DNA of 35,304 nt from assembly GCA_013813435.1 (NCBI GenBank), contig JACCRS010000050.1, positions 1-35,304 of the forward strand, in the 5' to 3' direction. This document shows positions 5,990-32,710 of the stretch, one piece after another; position 1 is the first letter of the stretch, and each line of letters begins with the position of its first letter. The translations under genes were made by a program, and so were the position numbers. The DNA comes from Gemmatimonadales bacterium. GTDB lineage: Bacteria > Gemmatimonadota > Gemmatimonadetes > Gemmatimonadales > GWC2-71-9. Under the pieces are notes generated by a model that had not been told where the DNA came from, did no database searches, and worked only from the letters and a program-made list of their open reading frames with translations.

Positions 5990-7513
5990 ATGGTCAATCC
6001 TCTCGCTCAGCAAGACCGGAAGATTCCAGCCGGCTCCGACAGTATGGCGCGCGATCCCCTTTCCATTCCCAGCGAGGTGAAGGCGAGCATCCGGGTCCTC
6101 GTTGTCGATGACGAGCGGACCCTGCGTGAGAGCTGCGCCAGCGTCCTGCAGATGGATGGGTACAACGTTACGCTGATCGGCCGGGGTGAGGAGGCCCTGG
6201 AAACGGTGCGCCGGCGCAAGTTCGATGTCATCCTCGTGGATCTCTATATGTCGCAGGTTTCCGGCCTCGAGATCCTCCAGTCTACGTTGGAAGCATATAA
6301 GGACACAATCGTCGTAGTCATGACCGGTAATCCCAGCGTTACCAGCAGCATTGAGGCACTTCGCGCCGGTGCCTGGGACTACCTGCCGAAGCCTTTCTCA
6401 GCCACCCATCTGCAAGTGCTGATCGGCCGTGCATCGCATGCCGTGATGATGTCCCGCGAGGCCCAGGACCTGCGCGTGCAGCTTATGAAGCAGAACGGCC
6501 ATAGCGACAAGATCGCTCTGATCGGCATCGCACCACTATTCCGAAAGGCCGTGGATCTGGCCCGCAAAGTGGCCGCTACCGATGCATCGGTCTTCATCAG
6601 TGGCGAGAGCGGGACCGGCAAGGAGGTTATTGCCCAGTTCATACATCAGAACAGCCGCCGGGCTGGGCGCGCCCTGGTACCCATCAACTGTGCGGCACTG
6701 CCGGAGCCGTTGCTGGAGTCGGAAATGTTTGGGCATAAGAAGGGGGCGTTCACCGGCGCCGACCGTGACAAGCCGGGTCTCCTGGAAACCGCCAACGGCG
6801 GCACGCTCTTTCTCGACGAATTGACGGAAATGACCATGCCGCTGCAGGCCAAGCTTCTCCGGGTCATTCAGGACGGGGTGGTGCGCCGGGTGGGCAGTGA
6901 GACCCAGGACGCGGTGGTTGACGTTCGCTTCATTTCCGCCACCAATCGTGAGCCCCAGGAGGCGGTCGACCAAGGGGTGCTCCGGGGCGACCTTTTTTAT
7001 CGGCTCCGCGTGGTTCCTATAAAACTGCCGCCACTGCGGAAGCGCCTCGAGGACATCCCCCTCCTCGCCAATCATTTCCTTACCTACTACTGGCAGCGGC
7101 ACCGCCAGATGGGTGACCGGGTTCCCCGCCTGAGTGAGGCGAGTGTGGGCTTCTTGCGTTCCCGTCCCTGGCGAGGCAACGTTCGTGAGCTTCAGAACGT
7201 CATCGAGCATGTCGCAGTGCTGGCCGAGCCGGATCAGACTATCCAGCCAAACGACATCCCGGTATACGACGAGGGTGCGGAATGGCCGGCCGAAAGCGTC
7301 ACCCCGCCAGGAGTCATGGACGAAGCGTACCATCCCGCCAAGGATCGCGTGGTGGTGCAATTCGAGAAGGAGTACCTGACTCGTTTGATCAACCGAGCCG
7401 GGGGGAACATGTCCAAGGCGGCCCGTCTGGCGAGCATCGACCGCACTACTTTATACCGCCTGATGGACAAACACGAATTCCAGAGGGACGAGACCTCGGG
7501 ATCGACTGCGTGA
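5990..7513 (+). CDS. NtrC-family sigma54-dependent response regulator
   Basis: A 507-aa protein with three domains. A receiver lies at about 33-150, with acidic residues D40 and D41, phosphoacceptor D84 and K134. The AAA+ sigma54-interaction domain spans about 175-405, with Walker A GESGTGKE at 205-212, the GAFTGA loop at 252-257 that contacts sigma54, and Walker B in TLFLDEL near 272-278. A C-terminal Fis-type helix-turn-helix (GGNMSKAARLASIDRTTLYR) follows. All catalytic motifs are intact, so it should remodel sigma54-RNA polymerase after phosphorylation. GGGAG lies 8 nt before the ATG. It is the first gene of a pair with a histidine kinase whose GTG overlaps its TGA stop, which strongly suggests a cognate two-component system. 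Target genes are not evident. Confidence 0.97.
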   Translation: MVNPLAQQDRKIPAGSDSMARDPLSIPSEVKASIRVLVVDDERTLRESCASVLQMDGYNVTLIGRGEEALETVRRRKFDVILVDLYMSQVSGLEILQSTLEAYKDTIVVVMTGNPSVTSSIEALRAGAWDYLPKPFSATHLQVLIGRASHAVMMSREAQDLRVQLMKQNGHSDKIALIGIAPLFRKAVDLARKVAATDASVFISGESGTGKEVIAQFIHQNSRRAGRALVPINCAALPEPLLESEMFGHKKGAFTGADRDKPGLLETANGGTLFLDELTEMTMPLQAKLLRVIQDGVVRRVGSETQDAVVDVRFISATNREPQEAVDQGVLRGDLFYRLRVVPIKLPPLRKRLEDIPLLANHFLTYYWQRHRQMGDRVPRLSEASVGFLRSRPWRGNVRELQNVIEHVAVLAEPDQTIQPNDIPVYDEGAEWPAESVTPPGVMDEAYHPAKDRVVVQFEKEYLTRLINRAGGNMSKAARLASIDRTTLYRLMDKHEFQRDETSGSTA

Positions 7514-8679
7514 CACCTGAGATTGCGCTCACCGGTTCGACTGGAGAGCGCCGGCGGGTCATGCAGGAAGCCTCCGGGTCCGCACGGGCGTGGGACCCGA
7601 ACGGGCCGAGCGGCGGCTCTCTTGCGCCGGCGATCTGGGACGCATTGCGGGAGGCGGTGCTCTGGGCCGAGGCGGAATGGGAGCGGGTCCTGCAGCACGC
7701 CTCTGGAGTCGAAGAGGCAACCGCCCATCTGGCCCAGCTGTGCACCGCCATCCGGCAGGAAGCCTCGGGCCAGCCGGCGGATACCACGTCCGTACCCCGC
7801 AACGCTCTGTCCCGCCGGTGGCTCAGCCTCATTCGTACGGCCTTTCTGGAGCGGGTGGCAGCGCTGTCCGCCTCCGACTCAACTCAGCTGCTGCAGGTCC
7901 TCAACGCCATCGAGCGCATAGCTCAGCATCTCGAGGCCGACTGGTCGCAGCACTTTACCGACCGACTCTCCGGGCCCGACGGCCTGGAGCTGGTGGTGGA
8001 AGTGGCACATGACCTTCGCTCGCCGCTTACTTCCATTCTCTTTCTGGCCGAGACGCTACAACGCGGCCGGAGCGGGGCGGTGAACGCGGTGCAGGAGCGG
8101 CAGCTAGGGCTGATCTACAGCGCAGCGTTTGGCTTGAGCTCGGTGGCCAGCGATGTCATCGAGTTGGCGCGCGGCGGCGACCGCCTCGTCGATCTGGATC
8201 CCATTCCGTTCTCAGTCACCGACATCCTGGAATCGGTGCGCGATATTGTCCAGCCCATTGCCGAGGAGAAGAATCTCGTAGTGCGGCTGACTTCGCCCGC
8301 GGTTGACTTCCGAATCGGCCATCCAGTAGCCCTGAGCCGTGTGCTGCTGAACCTTACCACCAACGCGCTCAAATTCACCGGTGAAGGTTTCGTGGAGCTG
8401 ACCACGGTCCAACACACTGATCGTTCCATCGAGTTCTCCGTGCGCGACACTGGGCGCGGAATTCCTCCACAGTCGATGGCGACGCTCTTCGAGCCCTTCC
8501 GCCGCCGCCACAAGCCCGGAGAATACGCCTTTTCCGGCTCGGGGCTGGGCCTTTCGATCTGTCGCAAGCTGGTCGAGGCCATGGGTGCCGCCCTGCAAGT
8601 AGAGACTGCGCCCGGTTACGGGACCCGCTTCTACTTCGTGCTCGACCTTCCTGTGGCCGGTGAGCCTCAGTTCGGCTGA
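7510..8679 (+). CDS. Soluble histidine kinase, probable partner of the upstream NtrC-type regulator
   Basis: A 389-aa protein without membrane segments. Residues 1-155 are mostly helical with no recognisable sensor domain. The H-box is VAHDLRSPLTSIL with the phosphorylated H167. The catalytic domain has the N-box LLNLTTNALKFT, G1 in VRDTGRGI, the F-box LFEPF and G2 in GSGLGLSI, so it should autophosphorylate. The proposed GTG start overlaps the preceding stop as GTGA, indicating translational coupling; an ATG at 7561 is the alternative. The frame stays open upstream to 7282, but that part overlaps the regulator gene and resembles no domain. The soluble N-terminus suggests a cytoplasmic signal or a partner protein. 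Confidence 0.93.
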   Translation: MTPEIALTGSTGERRRVMQEASGSARAWDPNGPSGGSLAPAIWDALREAVLWAEAEWERVLQHASGVEEATAHLAQLCTAIRQEASGQPADTTSVPRNALSRRWLSLIRTAFLERVAALSASDSTQLLQVLNAIERIAQHLEADWSQHFTDRLSGPDGLELVVEVAHDLRSPLTSILFLAETLQRGRSGAVNAVQERQLGLIYSAAFGLSSVASDVIELARGGDRLVDLDPIPFSVTDILESVRDIVQPIAEEKNLVVRLTSPAVDFRIGHPVALSRVLLNLTTNALKFTGEGFVELTTVQHTDRSIEFSVRDTGRGIPPQSMATLFEPFRRRHKPGEYAFSGSGLGLSICRKLVEAMGAALQVETAPGYGTRFYFVLDLPVAGEPQFG

Positions 8680-23867: not shown

Positions 23868-25115
23868 TCATTGTGCCATGGTCGCGAAGAACTCCTTGTT
23901 GTTCTTGGTGCGCTTCATACGCTCGAGGAGGAACTCGATAGCCTCCACCGGGGGCATGTCGGCGAGGAAGTTGCGCAGGAGATAAACCCGGTTGAGCTCG
24001 TCTTTGTCCATCAGGAGCTCTTCCTTGCGGGTGGAGGTTCGCTGAATGTCGATTGCGGGATAAATGCGTCGGTCTGCCAGGCGGCGGTCGAGCACCAGCT
24101 CCATGTTGCCGGTACCCTTAAACTCCTCGAAGATGACCTCGTCCATCCGGCTGCCGGTATCGATCAGCGCGGTAGCAATGATCGTCAGGCTCCCGCCCTT
24201 ATCGATATTTCGGGCTGCTCCGAAGAAGCGCTTGGGCTTCTGAAGGGCGTTGGCATCGACACCGCCAGAGAGAATCTTGCCCGAGTGTGGCACCACCACG
24301 TTATGTGCCCGGGCCAGGCGGGTGATGGAGTCGAGCAGGATCACTACATCGCGGCCGTGCTCCACCAGCCGCTTCGACTTTTCGATGACCATGTCGGCCA
24401 CCTGCACGTGGCGGTCGGCCGGCTCGTCGAAGGTGGAGGAAATGACCTCCGCCTTGACGTTCTCCTCCATGTCGGTGACTTCCTCGGGGCGCTCGTCGAT
24501 GAGCAGGACGATCAGCACGATCTCCGGATGATTCTCACTGATGGCATTGGCAAGCTTCTGCATCAGGATGGTCTTGCCCGCCTTCGGGGGCGCCACGATG
24601 AGCCCTCGCTGCCCTTTGCCGATGGGGGAAAGCAGGTCGACCACCCGCATCGAGAGATCGCCCGTCTTGCGCTCGAGCCGGATACGTGCGTCGGGATACC
24701 GCGGCCGCAGGTTGTCGAACGCGATCCGGTGCTTGGTCTTCTCCGGCTCCTCGAAGTTGACCTGTTCGACCTTCAACAGGGCGAGATAGCGTTCTCCCTC
24801 CTTGGGCGGACGGACCTGGCCCATGACAGTGTCGCCAGTGCGCAGATCGAAGCGCTTGATCTGGCTGGGTGATACGTAGATATCGTCGGGCCCATACAGA
24901 TAATTCCAATCCTGACTCCGCAGGAATCCGTATCCCTCCGGCAGGATTTCCAGCACGCCCTCGCCGCGGATGACCGTGTCGGAGTCGAGCAGAGACTGCT
25001 CAATGCGGAAGATCAGGTCCTGCTTCCGAAGGCCGGAGTAGTTGGTGATGTTCAACTGCTCTGCCAGCGTGTGCAGCTCAGCGACCGACTTCTGCTTTAA
25101 CTCAGCGATATCCAC
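23868..25115 (-). CDS. rho: Transcription termination factor Rho
   Basis: A 415-aa hexameric RNA helicase. The N-terminal Rho-N helix bundle is [20 protein letters not shown]. The cold-shock-like RNA-binding domain contains [22 protein letters not shown] (EGYGFLR type). The ATPase has Walker A APPKAGKT, the [13 protein letters not shown] block, and Walker [17 protein letters not shown] with the Q-loop [21 protein letters not shown]. All match canonical Rho. The GTG at 25115 is chosen because GGAG lies 8 nt upstream and the family starts here; the frame open to 25280 has no similarity. A C-rich leader precedes it. Confidence 0.98.
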
Positions 25116-25495
25116 GGGTGGGACTCCATGCGAACAGGCCCGGCCAAGGGTCGGGCTGGTGGGGTGGGTTGTGAGAGTGCAAGACCGAGCGAGGTTGGAC
25201 CGTGTATGTAGTGGCGCAGAGCGCCGGAGCCTGCAAGAACGTTGTGGTCGGGGATTTTCTCTGGGACAAGAAAGCTCCATAAAGTAGGAGTCGGAGGAGG
25301 CTTAGTCAAGTGCCCGAGACGGCTCTGGCGGTGCCGCCCACGTGGGACTCGTCCTTCGGTTGCCGCTGATACACCGCAGCTTGCCGCTATTGCATTAGCT
25401 CCCGGTGGCTACAATCTTTACGCCTTCCAGGCGGCCAGGTGCAAATCCCCGACGACCGCAGCAAGCCGGAGTGCGACCTTCCTCAACCAAGCCTC
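25116..25495 (-). other. rho upstream region, 380 bp without a gene
   Basis: The minus strand is unusually C-rich and G-poor at 25180-25148 (20 C and 3 G in 33 nt), resembling a rut site where Rho could bind its own leader. A frame in phase with rho is open to 25280 but has no domain. Nothing else is recognised apart from a tRNA-like look-alike near 25390-25455 that does not fold. Confidence 0.45.
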
Positions 25496-25678
25496 ATGAA
25501 CGATTCCGAGAGGCTCAGCCGCCTGCGCCACGATCTGTCCAATCCGCTCTCGGCCCTGCTTGCCGAGACGCAACTGCTCCTGCTGAACGAAGCACGGATT
25601 GACGCGGAGATCCTGACAGGACTCAGGGAGATCGAGGCACTGGCCATCCGGATGAGGACAATGTTAAGGGAGTTATAG
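25496..25678 (+). CDS. 60-aa stand-alone histidine kinase dimerisation (DHp)-like protein
   Basis: A 60-residue frame reading MNDSERLSRLRHDLSNPLSA, then a long helix LLAETQLLLLNEARIDAEIL and a second helix to RMRTMLREL. The HDLSNPLSALL segment (H12) is a typical H-box, and the two helices with a short turn match the DHp hairpin of kinases. No ATPase domain follows: a stop comes at 25678 and a convergent gene begins 28 nt later. It could be a phosphotransfer protein, a competitor for kinase dimers, or a remnant of a deleted kinase. A GTG at 25439 is an alternative start; no clear ribosome-binding site is seen. It faces an HD-GYP response regulator, a possible partner by position only. Confidence 0.6.
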   Translation: MNDSERLSRLRHDLSNPLSALLAETQLLLLNEARIDAEILTGLREIEALAIRMRTMLREL

Positions 25679-25705
25679 CAGCGCGAGGGCGAACCTCTTC
25701 GGAGC

Positions 25706-26764
25706 CTATGCCGAAATAGGCAGGTCGCCGGGATGAGGATACGCGTCCACGAATGCTTCTACGGCCTGGGGATCAAGCTGGGTACCGGCTACTCGTCGCA
25801 GCTCGTGAACGGCGTCATCGGCCGGCTTGGAATCTCGATAAGGTCTGCTGGTGGTCATGGCATCGAACGAGTCGGCCACGGCGACAATTCGCGCCTCGAT
25901 AGGAATATTCTCACCCCGCAGACCGTCGGGAAATCCCGCCCCGTCCAGCCGTTCGTGGTGCGAACGCACGATGCGCAAAACGTCGGGCGACTCGTGCGCC
26001 AGCGGGGCCAGCATCCGTTCGCCGAGCACGGGATGCTCGGTGATCTGGCGGAATTCGTCGGCGGTCAGTGTACCGGGTTTGTGCAGCACGGATTCCCGGG
26101 TTCCGATCTTGCCGATATCATGGAGTTCGCCGCCCAGCCGGATGCCGTCCAGGCCGGGGCCATCGAATCCGAGCCGGGCGGCGGTTGCCACAGCGTATTG
26201 GCTTACCCGTATCGAGTGGCCCCGGGTGTACGCGTCTTTGGCTTCCAGGGCTCGCGCCAGCATCTGAATGCCCTGGAGGAAAAGTTCCTGGATTCGCTGG
26301 GCCTGAACCTGCACTTGTCGCTCCAGATGCTCCTGATAGAACCGGTTTTGCAGTACCAGGGCTCGCTTCTCGAGCGCGCGCACGACGCGGGCCTGCAGCT
26401 CACCCAGGGAGATCGGCTTGAGCAGGAAATCGGCCGCACCGAGATGGAGACAGTCGACCGCGGTGGTCGTTTCGCTGATGCCGCTGAGCATTATGACGGA
26501 GCTGTCAGGGAATCGAAGGCGGACCGCCTCCAGGAAGCCCATGCCATCGAGCTCCGGCATCCGCATATCCGAGATGATCAGCGGCGTCTCGCCTATACGG
26601 TCGAGTACCTGCAGCCCTTCTCGTCCGCTGCCCGCTTCGAAACAGTTGAAGCCTTGGGTCTGCAGCATGCGGGCGAGTGAACGGCGCACACTAGGCTCGT
26701 CGTCGACGATGAGACAGTTGGCGGAGGCGGCCACGACCGCGCTCGCTGCCTGAGCTTCTGGCAT
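25706..26764 (-). CDS. HD-GYP response regulator (cyclic-di-GMP phosphodiesterase type)
   Basis: A 352-aa protein. The receiver at about 15-130 has D21-D22, phosphoacceptor D66, S94 and K116. A coiled helix (about 130-165) leads to the HD-GYP domain, with the KDAYTRGHS helix, the metal pair H215-D216 in ELHDIGKIG, and H269-H270 in [14 protein letters not shown]. The GYP tyrosine is Phe (GFP, 277-279), a common variant. The domain hydrolyses c-di-GMP; phosphorylation would gate it. The ATG at 26764 is chosen because the frame open to 27124 overlaps aconitase. It diverges from acnA with 196 nt between. A small hairpin (25704-25721) straddles its stop. Confidence 0.93.
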
Positions 26765-30240: not shown

Positions 30241-32574
30241 CTACTGCGGCGCCGGCGGGCGGCGGGGATGCCGGTCGAGCATCCAGCGGACCTTGGTGGC
30301 GAGTCCAACCGGAGTAAACGGCTTCTGTTGGAAAGGTGCTCCCGGGTCCAACAAGCCCCGGTGCATCACGTCGTCGCCGGTGTACCCCGACATGTAGAGG
30401 ACCGGCAGTCCGGGCTCCTGCTGCGCCAATAGTTGACCCAGTTCTCGCCCGCCCATTTCGGGCATCACAACGTCCGATATGACCAGATCGATGGCCCCGG
30501 GATGCTCCCTGATATACTGCAGCGCCTGGATTCCGTTGCAGGCCTCGAGGACAGAATAGCCCTGATCCTTGAGTCCTCTGCAGGCGAGGTTCCGAACCAT
30601 ATCTTCGTCTTCGATGATCAGGATCGTCTCCGATCCGCCTACGGGCATCCTCGGGGGTTCGGGCTTGAGCTCACCCGGCAGGGTCGGCTCGGCCACAGGG
30701 AGGTAAATCTTGAACACGCTTCCCTGGCCAAGCTCGCTGTAGACCCAGACGTAGCCGCCGCTTTGCTTCACGATACCGTACACCGTCGACAACCCCAGGC
30801 CGGTTCCCTGGCCGACCGGCTTGGTGGTGAAAAACGGCTCGAAGATACGGGCCTGAACATCGGCATCCATACCGCAGCCGGTGTCGCTGACGGCCAGCAT
30901 CACATAGCGGCCGAGCGGAAGGTCTACCCCGCCGTGCCGCTGGGCATAGATCTCGTCCCAGACCATCATGCCGGTTTCGACCGTGACACGTCCGTGGCCG
31001 GTCAGGGAATCGCGGGCATTGATTACCAGGTTGATGAGCACCTGCTCGAGCTGGCCCCGGTCGGCTCGAAGCTTCCCGGCCTCGGATGAGAGCTGAAGAT
31101 CGAGCACGTGCCCTTCGCCGAGCGACCGGCGCAACATTTTTTCCATGTCGCCCACCACAGTATTGACGTCGAGCACCTGAGGCTGCAGAAACTGCTGCCG
31201 GGTGAATGCCAGCAGCTGCCGGGTGACATCCGCGGCGCGGGTACCGGCTTTGATGATTTCCTCGACGTCGGATCGGCGCGCATCTCCCTCCTCGAGGCTC
31301 CGAAGCAGGAACTCGCTGAATCCGATGACGCCGGTCATCATATTGTTGACTTCGTGCGCCACGCCCCCCGCCAGCTTTCCGGCAGCCTGCATGCGTTCCG
31401 CCCGGCGCAGGTGCTCCTCCACCCGCTTCCTCTCAGTGACGTCGCGGTAAATACCGCGCACCACTGCGGGCTGGCCATCCTTGAAAGTGCAGCTGAGGTT
31501 CCCCTCCACCGTAATGGGACTGCCGGCTTTGGGCATAAAGATGAGCTCCACATGGTCCAGCCTGTCACCGGTGAGAACGCGCTGGAGGACTTCGGTGTAA
31601 AACGCGCGGCTGTCGGGGTGGATCAGATCGAGCAGCTGCATCCGGCCGATCTCGTCTTCACCATAGCCGGTGCCGTGTTTCCAGGCCTGATTCACATACA
31701 GGAGGGATCCGTCGGGAGCCGCCATGCATACCAGATCACTCGCGTGGTCGAACAGATCGCGGTAGCGCTCCTCGCTTTCGCGGAGCGCTCGGTCGGCTCG
31801 CTTGCGCTCACTCACGTCCCTGGCGTTCAGCACGATCCCCCGGATGGTCGCGTCATTCAGCAGGTTGGTTCCGACGGCCTCCAGCCAGACCGGTGTTCCA
31901 TCGCTCCGCCGCAAGCTGAACTCAACCGGGCCGGCACTGTCCGACTTCCCGTTGCCGGTTTGAAGCAACCGCTGCACCGTCCGTGCGTCATCGCCGCCCA
32001 GGTAGGACAGCAAACTGGTGCCCACCAGTTCACCGGGCGAATAACCCACGATACGCTGGGCCGAGTCGCTGGCGTAGAGGATGGTGCCGTCAGGGGCCAG
32101 AATCGTCACCAGGTCGGATGAGTTCTGCACCAGCGACCGGAAGCGGCGTTCACTGGCGGCGAGCGCGGCCTCGGCCTGGGTCTTTTGAGCCTGCGCTCGG
32201 GCTCGCTCGAGTGCGGCCTGAATGGCAGGACCAATCCGCGCCAGGTTGCTCTTCAGGAGGTAGTCGGTGGCTCCAGCCTTCATGCAGCCCACAGCGGTCT
32301 CTTCATTGACCGAGCCGGTAACAATCAGGAAGGGGATGCTGGGAGCGCGTTCCCGGGCCAGCGAGAGCGCAGTCATGCCATCAAAGCGCGGTAGGGTGTA
32401 GTCGGACAGGATCAGGTCGGGACCGAACTCCTCCAGCTCACGCAGGAACTCGTCACGGCTGTCCACCCGGCGGGAGGCAAACGGGATCCGAGCCCGCTCC
32501 AGCTCGTATTCCATAAGCTCCGCATCCATTGGCACATCTTCGAGAATAAGGATGCGGAGGGCATCTTCAGGCAT
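30241..32574 (-). CDS. Hybrid sensor kinase: REC-PAS-PAS-HisKA-HATPase-REC
   Basis: A 777-aa cytoplasmic protein. An N-terminal receiver (about 6-125, D58 in LILSDYTLP) is followed by two PAS domains, starting at SERRFRSLVQNSSDLV and SEERYRDLFDHASDLV; the second ends in a RDVTERKRVEEHLRR PAC linker. The H-box is GGVAHEVNNMMTGV with H407. The ATPase has NLVINARDSL (N-box), SDTGCGMD (G1), FEPFFTTK and GTGLGLSTVYGIV (G2). A C-terminal receiver has the VISDVVMPEMGG strand and an SGYTGDD loop. A receiver at both ends suggests input from another kinase and internal phosphotransfer. The ATG at 32574 matches the receiver start. It diverges from the poly-HAMP gene, sharing a CRP-like site. Confidence 0.95.
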   Translation of the reverse strand: MPEDALRILILEDVPMDAELMEYELERARIPFASRRVDSRDEFLRELEEFGPDLILSDYTLPRFDGMTALSLARERAPSIPFLIVTGSVNEETAVGCMKAGATDYLLKSNLARIGPAIQAALERARAQAQKTQAEAALAASERRFRSLVQNSSDLVTILAPDGTILYASDSAQRIVGYSPGELVGTSLLSYLGGDDARTVQRLLQTGNGKSDSAGPVEFSLRRSDGTPVWLEAVGTNLLNDATIRGIVLNARDVSERKRADRALRESEERYRDLFDHASDLVCMAAPDGSLLYVNQAWKHGTGYGEDEIGRMQLLDLIHPDSRAFYTEVLQRVLTGDRLDHVELIFMPKAGSPITVEGNLSCTFKDGQPAVVRGIYRDVTERKRVEEHLRRAERMQAAGKLAGGVAHEVNNMMTGVIGFSEFLLRSLEEGDARRSDVEEIIKAGTRAADVTRQLLAFTRQQFLQPQVLDVNTVVGDMEKMLRRSLGEGHVLDLQLSSEAGKLRADRGQLEQVLINLVINARDSLTGHGRVTVETGMMVWDEIYAQRHGGVDLPLGRYVMLAVSDTGCGMDADVQARIFEPFFTTKPVGQGTGLGLSTVYGIVKQSGGYVWVYSELGQGSVFKIYLPVAEPTLPGELKPEPPRMPVGGSETILIIEDEDMVRNLACRGLKDQGYSVLEACNGIQALQYIREHPGAIDLVISDVVMPEMGGRELGQLLAQQEPGLPVLYMSGYTGDDVMHRGLLDPGAPFQQKPFTPVGLATKVRWMLDRHPRRPPAPQ

Positions 32575-32710
32575 GACGCAGATCCAGGTGACGAGCAGGC
32601 CGGGTACCGACCGTCCGGACAACAGCCTATGGTTCAGTGAGCAATTGATGAAGTGTCGCCGATGTAAAGCGTAAGTCAAGCGCCTGGCGGCTATCCAATT
32701 TCTTGACACT

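Follow-up and report, generated by a model that had tools for sequence, protein, structure and literature searches.

Background

DHp domains are usually studied inside histidine kinases, and cut-down constructs have shown that a DHp alone can act as a phosphatase. In HisKA proteins the acidic residue that follows the His (H+1) is needed for kinase activity and is dispensable for phosphatase activity, which needs a Thr or Asn at H+4 (PMC3510030). For both EnvZ and HK853, the DHp in isolation acts as a phosphatase (PMC5727384, PMC7005713); in particular, the HK853 DHp dephosphorylates RR468 in vitro, and its H260A mutant is less active (PMC5727384). Two other kinds of DHp-based system are relevant here. 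The phosphotransferases Spo0B and ChpT build the same four-helix bundle, and ChpT, which is dimeric, has no autokinase activity (PMC3433190). In addition, RetS blocks GacS through a heterodimeric DHp-DHp interface (PMC12148439).

The window (the whole stretch of DNA analysed here, 35,304 nucleotides of contig JACCRS010000050.1 from a Gemmatimonadales bacterium) contains a gene for a DHp by itself. Its product shares with the HisKA domain of kinases (PF00512) the two-helix hairpin, the H-box H-D/E-x-x-N-P-L and the match to the kinase-DHp fold, but it has no CA domain, sensor or linker; it carries an A-E-x-Q motif, and most of its homologues in family f2 have no acid at H+1. It is DHp-based like Spo0B and ChpT; however, ChpT retains a C-terminal ATPase-like domain, as does Spo0B, while the window protein has none and matches no corresponding Pfam family. 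The EnvZ and HK853 constructs resemble it (DHp alone, catalytic His, Thr or Asn at H+4), but they are laboratory truncations, whereas the window gene occurs in nature and is conserved across its family. RetS/GacS offers a possible inhibitory mechanism through DHp-DHp interaction and the best structural match, although RetS resembles a whole sensor kinase and the window protein is only the hairpin. Every element is already known: the DHp fold, the phosphatase activity of DHp constructs, and phosphotransferases with a degenerate C-terminal domain. In the literature searched, which was limited and left most subscription journals outside, no natural single-copy DHp-only family is described.

A gene for a complete DHp hairpin

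The open reading frame begins with an ATG at 25496 and ends with a TAG at 25676-25678 on the + strand, giving the product MNDSERLSRLRHDLSNPLSALLAETQLLLLNEARIDAEILTGLREIEALAIRMRTMLREL (Table 1). HisKA is its sole Pfam family. The match of the window copy is weak (18.7 bits vs a cut-off of 26.9); all 58 of the 58 aligned orthologues match HisKA at E<=0.01 (best 6.9e-11), and several of the relatives lie above the cut-off. AlphaFold2, with the 58 orthologues as input, predicts a two-helix hairpin (pLDDT 94.6, single chain). The ten top Foldseek matches in the PDB are all histidine-kinase DHp domains, with probabilities of 0.89-0.99 and E-values weakened by the small size of the fold; the first of them is the GacS DHp, chain A of the RetS-GacS DHp complex 7N0E (TM 0.79). 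No CA (HATPase_c) domain is present on the chain, since the stop codon lies right after helix 2 and Pfam finds HisKA alone; there are zero residues past helix 2 for a C-terminal ATPase-like domain of the Spo0B/ChpT kind. The Hpt profile gives no match to the window protein at E<=10, and Pfam returns no Spo0B or ChpT family match for it or its orthologues. These results confirm that the gene encodes a complete HisKA-type DHp hairpin with nothing else attached and, as the initial annotation had read from the sequence, with its histidine (His12) intact. No consensus promoter or terminator was found around the gene.

Table 1. Positions of the stand-alone DHp gene, its sequence elements and its neighbours in the window
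Feature	Position	Strand	Basis
Gene for transcription termination factor Rho, a conserved neighbour divergent from DHp; core conserved up to 25115, start ~25118 by inspection	23868..25118	-	
rho/DHp divergent intergenic region; lacks the M50 peptidase and 94-aa genes that most relatives have here	25119..25495	.	
Stand-alone DHp protein, 60 aa, without CA or sensor domain	25496..25678	+	Pfam, AlphaFold2, Foldseek
Helix 1, residues 3-29, H-box RHDLSNPLSALLAETQ	25502..25582	+	AlphaFold2 model
His12 codon, phosphorylatable/catalytic histidine; invariant in 56/56 f1/f3 orthologues	25529..25531	+	alignment
Asp13 codon (H+1); retained in the window's family, missing from most rho-linked f2 homologues	25532..25534	+	alignment
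Asn16 codon (H+4), HisKA phosphatase residue position; invariant in f1/f3/f2	25541..25543	+	alignment
Ala23-Glu24-Thr25-Gln26 codons (H+11 to H+14), A-E-x-Q signature, absent from control kinases	25562..25573	+	alignment
Helix 2, residues 37-59, Glu47 and Arg54 invariant	25604..25672	+	AlphaFold2 model, alignment
Response regulator with HD-GYP-type domain, convergent with DHp; adjacency not conserved	25706..26764	-	

Conservation of the short form

A full-length counterpart is found in 56 of 101 relatives at E below 1e-8, every one from family f1 or f3; apart from the window's own genome, the best counterpart reaches 6e-29. The short homologues of equal length that the initial annotation had proposed to look for are therefore there: the orthologues are 58-77 aa long with a mode of 60 (the genomes are mostly MAGs, and start codons are predictions). 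They stop at the hairpin or after a short tail, mostly 1-20 aa past it, and have no CA domain. The full-length kinase that the annotation had named as the sign of a remnant was also looked for at this locus, and the relatives carry the short protein instead. Exactly one copy is present in 46 of the 51 near-complete genomes of the window's family, and 22 of its 25 genera have the gene; the carriers that bear names are Gemmatimonadota MAGs plus 'Bacterium HR33'. Nine positions (His12, Asn16, Pro17, Leu18, Ala20, Glu24, Gln26, Glu47 and Arg54) are invariant in the 56 aligned sequences, and pN/pS within a genus is 0.06-0.27, which represents strong purifying selection. An in-frame stop 0-4 codons 5' of the start rules out a longer N-terminus in 13 of the 56 relatives. 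Similarity and selection of this order are far beyond chance, and the 60-aa DHp protein is a conserved single-copy Gemmatimonadota protein, not a broken gene.

Gene neighbourhood

The conserved neighbour of the gene is rho, which is divergent and upstream of it in 57 of the 60 loci whose upstream sequence extends for 3.5 kb or more. Of these, 37 have both an M50 peptidase gene and a gene for a 94-aa protein between rho and the DHp gene, 9 have only the 94-aa gene there, 5 only the peptidase gene and 6 neither. The presence of both in most members suggests that the order rho–M50 peptidase–94-aa–DHp is ancestral. Since the DHp gene survives the loss of the other two, it is independent of both; no M50 peptidase was found in the genus of the window.

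The M50-type membrane peptidase (in L034, between 1.5 and 0.4 kb 5' of the DHp gene, and in relatives) is divergent from rho and 5' of the 94-aa gene. In most relatives the 94-aa gene is directly 5' of the DHp gene, with stop and start often abutting; it is missing from the window. Its product (L096:5705-5986 and 56 further loci) is a conserved uncharacterised protein with the C-terminus VRDLRDHHLRDLYRSLL and an invariant Trp75. It is modelled as beta-rich (pLDDT 80.6), and comparison with PDB folds and with families gave no convincing match.

Other DHp proteins without a CA domain in the class

A profile of the window family picks up weaker relatives across the class (families f2, f5, f7 and f10), and nearly all cases examined end shortly past the hairpin without a CA domain; L179 is an ordinary kinase caught by the profile search. 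In f2 (presumably Gemmatimonadaceae, of the same order as the window) 30 of 33 loci have the DHp gene in tandem with rho and 5' of it, and the protein ends 1-12 residues past the matched hairpin. Many of the f2 frames are short (67-116 aa), and others lie within long GC-rich frames where the start is ambiguous, as such frames obscure the true starts in f2, f7 and f10. Aligned with each other, the f1 and f2 profiles match over 57 columns at a probability of 98.7%, a value that the shared HisKA fold alone could give; the common linkage to rho and the A-E-x-Q signature argue for orthology of the two.

The remaining relatives were not found beside rho but beside signalling genes or gcvH. In f10 a DHp with an N-terminal extension of ~130 aa lies directly 5' of a gene for a response-regulator HD-GYP protein or overlaps it by a few bases. 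A comparable protein in f7 is followed by genes for a complete NtrB-like kinase and an NtrC-like regulator. The N-terminal domain of f7 and f10 has no Pfam match and looks receiver-like by eye only. The f5 protein (L164-L168) is a stand-alone DHp of 72-79 aa, ~90 nt upstream of a gcvH-like gene (named from sequence by inspection), and has G-H, not A-E, at H+11/H+12.

Two single loci differ in other ways. In the f10 DHp-like protein at L172:5872-6030, which adjoins an HD-GYP gene, Gln replaces the phospho-histidine (RQEVNSP). In f2, the stretch L154:5305-7123 holds, upstream of the DHp, an AraC-type regulator, a 135-aa single-domain receiver and a divergent TPR-like gene of 198 aa; the receiver is a possible partner of that DHp.

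Kinase and phosphatase residues

The His and the Asn at H+4 are invariant in 73/73 f1/f3 and 17/17 f2 sequences, and the Asn is retained throughout a larger, partly overlapping f2 set (n=33). The protein therefore has what is looked for in a phosphatase of the HisKA type, a Thr or Asn at H+4 together with the catalytic His. The acidic residue at H+1 is missing from 28 of the 32 scored f2 homologues, all of which retain His and Asn, and is present in 28 of 29 true kinases that six genomes of the class supplied as a control (Fisher p 6e-12, which overstates the number of independent losses because the sequences are related by descent). The f1/f3 copies, which retain Asp at H+1 (51/56 and 72/73), do not discriminate between mechanisms.

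A second pattern lies further along helix 1, where A-E-x-Q at H+11 to H+14 is constant across f1/f3, f2 and f7, with one exception among 99 sequences. The control kinases mostly have G at H+11, an aromatic or other residue at H+12 and E at H+14, and by the listed counts none of the 29 has E at H+12. In known complexes, regulator contacts fall on the portion of helix 1 where these three positions sit, and the constancy of A-E-x-Q suggests a single conserved partner surface. The residue pattern suits a response-regulator phosphatase or a phosphoryl shuttle better than part of a kinase, and suggests that the protein acts on the phosphate of a regulator, most likely by removing it.

A proposed function and its rivals

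Because the ATP-binding domain is missing, the DHp alone cannot autophosphorylate. The best explanation, held at somewhat less than an even chance, is that it may be a stand-alone response-regulator phosphatase. We infer that two hairpins would pair into the usual four-helix bundle as a homodimer and that this dimer would use the invariant face of helix 1 to dock on a single conserved response regulator. As in the HisKA proteins that have been studied, Asn16 would then place the attacking water and His12 would serve as the catalytic base, so that the phosphoryl group is stripped off the regulator; the net role would be that of a phosphatase or phosphate drain built of a DHp alone. This reading draws on the single copy, the spread over genera, the ~60-aa length and the strong purifying selection, on the invariant His and Asn, the loss of the H+1 acid in f2 and the HK853 precedent, and on f7, where an extra DHp ahead of a complete kinase and regulator would serve better as a modulator or phosphatase than in a relay. 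Three points count against it: the Asp that f1/f3 retain at H+1 would be superfluous for a pure phosphatase, Asn at H+4 is compatible with phosphotransferases too (Spo0B has it), and the f10 member L172 has lost the His. The wider proposal, that the CA-less DHp proteins of Gemmatimonadota (~60 aa in the window's family) form a class-wide family of dedicated phosphatases of one conserved regulator, kept beside rho and with kinase chemistry dropped in one branch, is possible but more doubtful.

The initial annotation had offered two roles, relay and dominant inhibitor, both of which are possible and are the main rivals here; a response-regulator phosphatase, absent from it, fits the residue pattern better. 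As a relay, the DHp dimer would take phosphate from the receiver of a hybrid kinase onto His12 and pass it to another regulator, in the manner of Spo0B or ChpT without the C-terminal domain. The invariant His12, the H+1 Asp of the window's family and the bundle shared with those phosphotransferases suit this, and HisKA kinases are numerous in the genome, a PAS-HK-receiver hybrid at 30244-32709 in the window among them; yet most f2 homologues have no H+1 acid, no conserved hybrid-kinase neighbour is seen, and HPt, Spo0B and ChpT family matches are all lacking, which leaves the relay unlikely, if a serious contender. That the hairpin might instead pair with a full kinase's DHp in a heterodimer and block autophosphorylation, as RetS does with GacS, is improbable: a pure dimer poison needs no invariant His, Asn and Pro, yet these are among the best conserved residues, and the 7N0E match reflects only the common DHp fold, although the position of f7 members 5' of a full kinase gene would suit such an inhibitor.

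A role outside phosphoryl transfer, such as a Rho-linked adaptor that uses the DHp-like bundle as a scaffold, would account for the proximity to rho in both f1/f3 (divergent) and f2 (tandem), but it is quite improbable given active-site residues that do not vary and f5, f7 and f10 relatives that lie elsewhere. Decay of a histidine kinase, in keeping with the sub-threshold HisKA score of the window copy, is rejected as having next to no probability: length is near-equal in all relatives, the short form is conserved across genera, and the upstream stops, the invariant H/N/P and the low pN/pS speak against it. A conserved natural DHp-only gene would show evolution using the module by itself, and as a 60-aa system it would allow phosphatase, phosphotransfer and dimer-interference roles to be separated in a poorly studied phylum.

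The adjoining HD-GYP regulator

The initial annotation had placed an HD-GYP response regulator opposite the DHp gene, 28 nt away. The two genes are indeed convergent and close, tail to tail, with 27 nt between their stops (25679-25705), but the regulator is not a conserved neighbour: it was found adjoining the DHp gene in just three species of the genus, the window's and two sisters, while in six other f1 species its orthologue lies ~7 kb away. Their proximity in the window is thus probably a derived local juxtaposition, so that this regulator is no more than a candidate partner of the DHp. A conserved HD-GYP partner of the window orthologue is likewise unsupported by comparison with f10, where in one genome the DHp-linked HD-GYP protein stands at 39% vs 44% for the best f10 match to the window HD-GYP. 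The independent DHp-HD-GYP operon of f10 keeps the idea of an HD-GYP partner alive.

In the window regulator the GYP motif reads GFP (DGAGFP), and the acidic residues and Lys of its receiver appear intact by eye. Elsewhere in the window, at 5990-8676, an NtrC-like regulator is followed by a complete HisKA kinase.
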